Of a DNA stretch of 64,000 bases, positions 57,148 to 57,392 are shown piece after piece. Below the pieces are notes generated by a model. That model was not told the origin of the DNA. It saw nothing but the letters and a program-made list of their open reading frames with translations, and did not search any database. The DNA comes from Elusimicrobia bacterium RIFOXYA2_FULL_47_53 (GTDB taxonomy: Bacteria > Elusimicrobiota > Endomicrobiia > Endomicrobiales > XYA2-FULL-47-53), in assembly GCA_001800315.1 (NCBI GenBank), contig MGVE01000020.1:216604-280603 (forward strand), given 5' to 3'. Position 1 is the stretch's first letter; the number at the start of each line of letters is the position of its first letter. The translations under genes were made by a program, and so were the position numbers.

Positions 57148-57314
57148 GGTGGCGAAGTAGCGGACTAAGGCTGTTTCAATGAAGAAAGAGCCGGGCCGTA
57201 CGGGTAAATTGGTCTGCCGCAACGATGCGGCAGGTTCAATGGAGCACTCCCGCAGGAAAAGATGGCGCAATGATGCGTCATAAGATTCCAGGTTCGTCCG
57301 CTGACTGAGCCGCC
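57148..57314 (+). ncRNA. Closed multibranched 5' leader RNA of gdhA (unrecognised class)
   Basis: The ends pair: GGTGGC (57148-57153) with GCCGCC (57309-57314), an internal loop, then AGCGGAC (57159-57165) with GTCCGCT (57296-57302). Inside are hairpins GGCT-TTTC/GAAA-AGCC (57169-57192), CTGCCGC/GCGGCAG (57214-57233) and ATGGCGC/GCGTCAT (57262-57281), whose loops are AATGAA, AACGAT and AATGAT. I know of no riboswitch, tRNA-like element or ribosomal-protein leader with this layout. Confidence 0.7.
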
Positions 57315-57340
57315 ATTAATATAGAAAGAAGTTGAAAAAG

Positions 57341-57392
57341 CGCGTCCGGCAACGCTGCCGAACGCGGCACCGCGTTTAATGAAGAACGGGAG
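57341..57392 (+). promoter_or_regulatory. Further hairpins next to the gdhA ribosome site
   Basis: CGGC-AACGCT-GCCG (57347-57360) and GTTT-AATGAA-GAAC (57374-57387) repeat the AAYGNN hexaloop; an alternative stem AACGCG/CGCGTT (57361-57376) competes with the latter. The last hairpin ends immediately before the ribosome site CGGGAG, so protein or RNA binding here could control translation. Confidence 0.55.

Follow-up and report, generated by a model that had tools for sequence, protein, structure and literature searches.

A five-hexaloop leader RNA before gdhA in an Elusimicrobia bacterium, probably a target of the sole ANTAR protein of its genome

What recognises the RNA that precedes gdhA in Elusimicrobia bacterium RIFOXYA2_FULL_47_53, and what does this recognition do to the gene? 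The approximately 250 nt upstream of gdhA carry five hairpins with a six-base loop of the form AxxGxx, every one of them closed by C-G or U-G. The initial annotation of the 64,000-nt stretch in which the gene lies (the window) described these loops as AAYGNN, took the leader for an unrecognised RNA, and offered as explanations a site bound many times by a protein, loop-loop contacts, or an RNA sensing nitrogen status. Its structural observations hold: the hairpins lie where it placed them (loops AATGAA at 57178, AACGAT at 57221, AATGAT at 57269, AACGCT at 57351 and AATGAA at 57378), the closing pair is C-G in four and U-G in the fifth (H5), and the product of the downstream gene matches the ELFV_dehydrog domain, as expected of gdhA. 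The features, all on the plus strand, are as follows.

57118-57146, plus strand: candidate promoter TTGTTT-17-TATTAT, read by eye and below the threshold of the consensus scan
57158-57303, plus strand: multibranched RNA domain containing H1, H2 and H3 (minimum free energy, shuffles)
57169-57192, plus strand: H1, loop AAUGAA at 57178-57183, C-G closed (ensemble probability of the closing pair 1.0)
57211-57236, plus strand: H2, loop AACGAU at 57221-57226, C-G closed (hairpin scan, ensemble)
57247-57252, plus strand: CUCCCG, pairing with CGGG 57201-57204 or alternatively with the Shine-Dalgarno region CGGGAG 57387-57392 (base-pair probabilities)
57262-57281, plus strand: H3, loop AAUGAU at 57269-57274, C-G closed (hairpin scan, ensemble)
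57341-57366, plus strand: H4, loop AACGCU at 57351-57356, C-G closed, the P1-like partner of H5 (hairpin scan, fold)
57370-57390, plus strand: H5, loop AAUGAA at 57378-57383, U-G closed, its 3′ arm lying over part of the Shine-Dalgarno (SD) sequence (base-pair probabilities)
57388-57392, plus strand: SD sequence GGGAG of gdhA, 5 nt upstream of the ATG at 57398 (sequence)
57398-58759, plus strand: gdhA, glutamate dehydrogenase, the regulated gene (PF00208, ELFV_dehydrog; PF02812)

A transcript from the candidate promoter would start near 57152 and so lack the first bases of the outermost helix (57148-57153 paired to 57309-57314).

The first issue is whether the arrangement departs from chance. 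The leader (57148-57392) has a minimum free energy of -102.7 kcal/mol (z -5.3), a value matched by none of 200 shuffles; the multibranch (57158-57306) folded alone reaches -64.1 kcal/mol (z -5.0), again with 0 of 200 shuffles as low. For the H4-H5 region the signal is lower, at z -2.1, with 7 of 200 shuffles folding equally well. We counted hairpins with a stem of at least 4 bp, an AxxGxx hexaloop and a C-G or U-G closing pair: the leader contains five, against a mean of 0.09 in dinucleotide shuffles, of which 0 of 5000 reach five, and elsewhere in the 64 kb, on both strands, the maximum is two per 250 nt. Eight hairpins of the leader have six-base loops, and in 5 of them the loop is AxxGxx; across the window the figure is 39 of 525 (binomial P 1e-4). 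The cluster is real and far from chance. An internal CCCG/CGGG pairing, which the initial annotation had thought possible, is likewise predicted (57201-57204 with 57249-57252, P ~0.76). Searching the organism's own genome with the DNA of the entire leader returned no second copy; the leader is therefore not a mobile or repeated element.

What kind of element this is can be read from the loops themselves. Targets of EutV require A at position 1 and G at position 4 (A1 and G4) in both loops, with stems that are structural and closing pairs that matter (PMC3369931), and selection of RNA ligands with NasR (SELEX) yields a C:G closing pair together with A1 and G4 (PMC7496416). All five loops before gdhA have A1 and G4, and the AAYGNN pattern is a sub-pattern of this known ANTAR element; the motif is thus not the unrecognised one it had been taken for. 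H4 and H5 form a tandem with a short linker, 12 nt from the upper stem of H4 to H5, within the 5-12 nt that separate tandem hairpins in the Enterococcus faecalis eut leaders (PMC3369931). Two aspects of the build count against an ANTAR identity: the H1-H2 and H2-H3 linkers, at ~25-29 nt, are longer than those reported to function in EutV targets, and five loops, three of them nested in one scaffold, depart from the two-hairpin form so far described.

If the loops are ANTAR sites then the genome should encode a protein of this class, and it does. The genome is 100% complete at 2.41 Mb, and a domain search over all of it returned one ANTAR protein (78.9 bits). Its gene lies outside the window at G000:C8:3115-4353 and encodes 412 aa, in which two GAF domains precede the ANTAR domain at the C-terminus. 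Its closest solved relatives by alignment are entries 1s8n, 6wsh and 4akk, which we take to be Rv1626, EutV and NasR. In the EutV-RNA structure the RNA is contacted by R142, K143, K147, Y164 and M172, with G4 stacked on Tyr164 (PMC8934654). By our reading of the alignment these correspond to R354, K355, R359, F376 and M384, and the contact residues thus appear to be kept or conservatively replaced. Taken together, loops and protein make it probable that the gdhA leader is a cis target of the genome's sole ANTAR-domain protein, a reading in which we place good confidence. The suggestion that one loop carried on unrelated stems marks a protein site recognised repeatedly is borne out in this form, and loop-loop contacts are not needed. 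Hexaloops under C-G pairs next to an SD sequence also resemble sites for CsrA, and repression of the CsrA/RsmA type through the loops near the ribosome site could be imagined. We consider it wholly improbable: GGA is absent from all five loops, and a search for CsrA (PF02599) that finds the protein in three control genomes finds none in this one.

We find the hexaloop in two further leaders of the same genome. The leader of glnA-gltB (glnA encoding glutamine synthetase III) contains the hairpin GGAC-AAAGAC-GUCC, whose 3′ arm doubles as the 5′ arm of a longer fold running to a U-run (ACGUCCU...AGGGCGU-UUUUUU); the longer fold has -26.5 kcal/mol, against -15.8 with the hexaloop hairpin forced. 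This attenuator-like fold lies outside our simple terminator scan, which took loops of 3-8. In the leader of amt-glnB (ammonium transporter, PII) the hairpin is GGCAC-AACGGA-GUGCC; downstream of it come a pair of GGACA...UGUCC units and a terminator predicted by the scan. Since the hexaloop precedes glnA-gltB, amt-glnB and gdhA, the nitrogen-assimilation set has the loop in common. A single-hairpin covariance model (R1), built from 21 hairpins outside the gdhA leader, shows strong pair covariation, yet this is circular because the training hairpins were selected for pairing. In the window R1 ranks H3 second (14.2 bits, E 0.44, not significant singly) and H2 thirteenth of 21 matches (11.7 bits, E 2.7, weak). 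Its top match in the genome as a whole is the glnA leader, itself in the training set; most of the other genomic matches fall within coding regions, and they appear to be fortuitous.

Tables of gdhA and ANTAR genes from 340 genomes of the phylum allowed us to ask whether the association extends to relatives. In four of them an ANTAR gene lies at most 9 kb from gdhA, and hexaloops precede genes for ANTAR proteins and glutamate synthase as well as gdhA, in several cases within terminators that share a hairpin arm. The gdhA leader of G298 has a promoter that matches the consensus at 12/12 positions, the hairpin GGAC-AAAGAC-GUCC and a 20-bp intrinsic terminator that re-uses the 3′ half of the hairpin; gdhA is followed there by three further hexaloops with a terminator-like fold, ANTAR and glnA. 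In G332, where ANTAR and glnA lie upstream of gdhA, a 12/12 promoter is followed by tandem AGAGUG and AGAGCC loops 8 nt apart and then by a terminator-like fold (by eye). In G335 an ANTAR gene comes first, then an AGAGUU/AAAGAC tandem and U-run, the genes for glutamate synthase, glnN and gdhA. Two members of the same order more closely resemble the window. One, G005, has a 12/12 promoter, loops AAAGGC, AAAGAU, AGUGAU and a fourth, no terminator, and a 10-bp helix that covers the SD; the other, G002, has an 11/12 promoter, AAUGGC and other loops, no sense terminator, and its SD within GCCUCC:GGAGGC. The nearest named relative found is Elusimicrobia bacterium LH_S2 (L039), with gdhA and glnN ~70% identical at the DNA level; the only other genome of the same family that was compared, G001, yielded no gdhA.

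Further arrangements in relatives are recorded here in their own right. In LH_S2 an ANTAR gene stands directly before gdhA and glnN (~1500-1870), its frame apparently broken within the ANTAR domain, which looks like assembly error or decay. In G330 (L178, minus strand near 5557) a tandem AUUGAU/AUUGUG with a U-run lies ~1.2 kb upstream of the ANTAR domain of the ANTAR gene and suggests ANTAR autoregulation. Among the gdhA leaders of family f6 (L015-L019, L022, L025) a hexaloop hairpin, for example GAAAGC-AAGGAU-GCUUUC, is nested in CTGAATAATTCA...TGAATTATTCAG-TTTTTT, that is, a terminator-like fold with an ANTAR-like loop inside; the loop varies in L015 and L018.

Among the closed hexaloops of 52 gdhA leaders, AxxGxx is the most frequent class where the genome encodes ANTAR (23 hairpins in 28 leaders, the next class having 11), and not the most frequent where it does not (7 in 24 leaders). 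Leaders with at least one such hairpin number 15 of 28 against 6 of 24 (one-sided Fisher P 0.03), a modest contrast that is supportive, not strong. Several ANTAR-encoding genomes have no such hairpins before gdhA (for example G017, G015 and G339), which counts against an ANTAR identity. The other relatives' leaders keep the hairpins only and not the scaffold, and linkers among them are too variable for a tandem alignment. Constant loops on changed stems, which the initial annotation had expected of gdhA relatives, are thus found in kind: the same loops recur on different stems.

These comparisons bear also on the idea of a new metabolite riboswitch that responds to glutamine, glutamate or ammonium status, the hexaloops being incidental. 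The very stable multibranch, its internal CCCG/CGGG contact and a nitrogen gene downstream would suit an aptamer. Against this, the relatives retain the loops and not the scaffold, the loops recur at other genes and in terminators in a manner that an aptamer leaves unexplained, and Rfam at gathering threshold matched nothing in the leader, a tRNA being its sole match in the whole window. At relaxed threshold the best match in the leader was SAM-SAH (21 bits, cut-off 40), accompanied by two snoRNA models; all three were judged chance. We therefore regard a riboswitch as very unlikely. The nitrogen link proposed in the initial annotation stands, and the metabolite aptamer is unsupported. The gdhA leader is very probably, on these sequence comparisons, a nitrogen-control switch of known type and unusual build.

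How such a switch would act on gdhA is a separate issue. Scanning the sense strand of the leader revealed no intrinsic terminator, neither overlapping the second hairpin – the mark of the antiterminator subtype – nor elsewhere in the leader, and the classical antitermination output is therefore absent. (Read on the minus strand, H4, 57341-57366, resembles an intrinsic terminator, with five T after the hairpin, although no minus-strand gene is evident there.) The ribosome-binding site (RBS) lies in the second hairpin, as in the RBS-sequestering subtype: SD bases 57388-57390 are largely paired in H5, with pairing probabilities above 0.99 for C57387 and G57388, 0.55 for G57389 and 0.98 for G57390. 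Translational control is thus the likeliest output.

The mechanism we propose is as follows. Once activated, the ANTAR protein would bind the hexaloops of the gdhA leader, where H4 and H5 would constitute the usual tandem pair with the SD in the second hairpin; binding would hold H5 closed and repress translation of gdhA, while the same protein would antiterminate glnA-gltB and amt-glnB. Repression is favoured because H5, the second hairpin of the tandem pair, covers most of the SD and because actinobacterial ANTAR targets with the RBS inside the second stem-loop are translationally repressed upon ANTAR binding (PMC8164766). Even so, on whether the active protein represses gdhA, reciprocally to its activation of glnA-gltB and amt, our judgement is evenly balanced. 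Openness of the SD is near-constant (0.55 with the hairpins enforced, 0.47 with them forbidden), and folding energies thus leave the direction undecided; moreover H5 is stable without protein, and thermodynamics therefore does not force a protein effect on SD access.

A possible role for H1-H3 comes from the model for EutV, whose dimers bind hairpins singly, one after another (PMC8934654). From this we infer that H1-H3, displayed by the multibranch, may serve to recruit additional ANTAR dimers to the same mRNA. Our fullest, and tentative, proposal is of a multivalent platform: the multibranch would show three hexaloops and pass protein to the tandem pair at the SD, and the GAF-GAF-ANTAR protein would switch gdhA (translation off) reciprocally to glnA-gltB and amt (antitermination on).

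The leader could also be an ANTAR target of opposite sign. CUCCCG is fully complementary to the SD region CGGGAG and is predicted to be paired within the multibranch; binding at H1-H3 might stabilise the multibranch, keep this anti-SD on CGGG 57201-57204, free the SD and turn gdhA on. The gene would then go with glnA and amt. This is suggested by G298 and G332, whose gdhA leaders are of the terminator type and look antiterminating, which would mean activation there. However, the multibranch is favoured by 7 kcal/mol without any protein (the cost of forcing the CUCCCG-SD pairing), and H5 covers the SD independently. Activation of gdhA in the window is to us a doubtful reading. In Enterococcus and Listeria, regulatory RNAs sequester EutV, and three clustered ANTAR loops with no terminator partner bring to mind a comparable sponge, the 5′ domain with H1-H3 being produced as a short RNA to titrate the ANTAR protein. 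This is quite unlikely, given that there is no terminator to end a short transcript and that H4-H5 at the gdhA ribosome site fit a role in cis. We thus retain the ANTAR-bound leader acting in cis on translation as the preferred reading.

The surroundings of the leader hold features of their own. Directly before gdhA (55708-57000) is a gene for a 430-aa protein that combines a weakly matching KaiC-like ATPase region with HTH_3 and cupin domains, an unusual combination. Between this regulator gene and gdhA are two copies of GTGTTAA-N5-ACTTAAT, 60 bp apart (57017-57035 and 57077-57095). They are possible operators for the preceding regulator, although with two mismatches allowed a pair of matches arises in 12 of 100 shuffles as well. 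After gdhA (58831-61052) come two genes whose products resemble NfnA/NfnB or the small-subunit proteins of glutamate synthase and perhaps supply NADPH to GdhA.

The gdhA leader suggests that nitrogen assimilation in Elusimicrobiota is under ANTAR control; of this, as of ANTAR in Elusimicrobia or Endomicrobium, we found no earlier report in the main texts of open-licence papers. With its five loops and missing terminator, the leader is a naturally occurring system in which to ask how many ANTAR dimers fit on a single mRNA, and whether one protein can antiterminate as well as block translation. How dimers share two loops is left open in the paper on the EutV structure (PMC8934654), and a five-loop RNA is a direct route to that question.

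The theme itself has precedent: in the ANTAR nitrogen regulons of Ramesh et al. 2012 (for example those of Desulfotomaculum and Pelobacter) amt, PII and glutamine/glutamate synthase genes also stand under ANTAR leaders, and the main text of that paper mentions neither glutamate dehydrogenase nor Elusimicrobia. With the leaders of eut (EutV, E. faecalis), nasF (NasR, Klebsiella) and amiE (AmiR, Pseudomonas) the gdhA leader shares A1/G4 hexaloops, C-G closing, a nitrogen-related gene and an ANTAR protein encoded in the genome. Whereas those targets are two-hairpin antiterminators in which the second hairpin overlaps an intrinsic terminator, the gdhA leader lacks a terminator, has five hexaloops of which three sit in a multibranched scaffold, and places part of its SD inside H5. 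In this last respect it resembles the actinobacterial RBS-sequestering targets (PMC8164766), where the second hairpin overlaps the RBS, a terminator is unneeded and control is translational, as we predict here; it differs from them in phylum, in its GAF-type ANTAR protein, in regulating a nitrogen-assimilation gene, and in the additional three-hexaloop domain on its 5′ side. The recognition element, the class of protein and the nitrogen theme are thus already known; what sets this leader apart from the ANTAR targets so far described is its missing terminator, the number of its loops and the scaffold in which three of them are nested.
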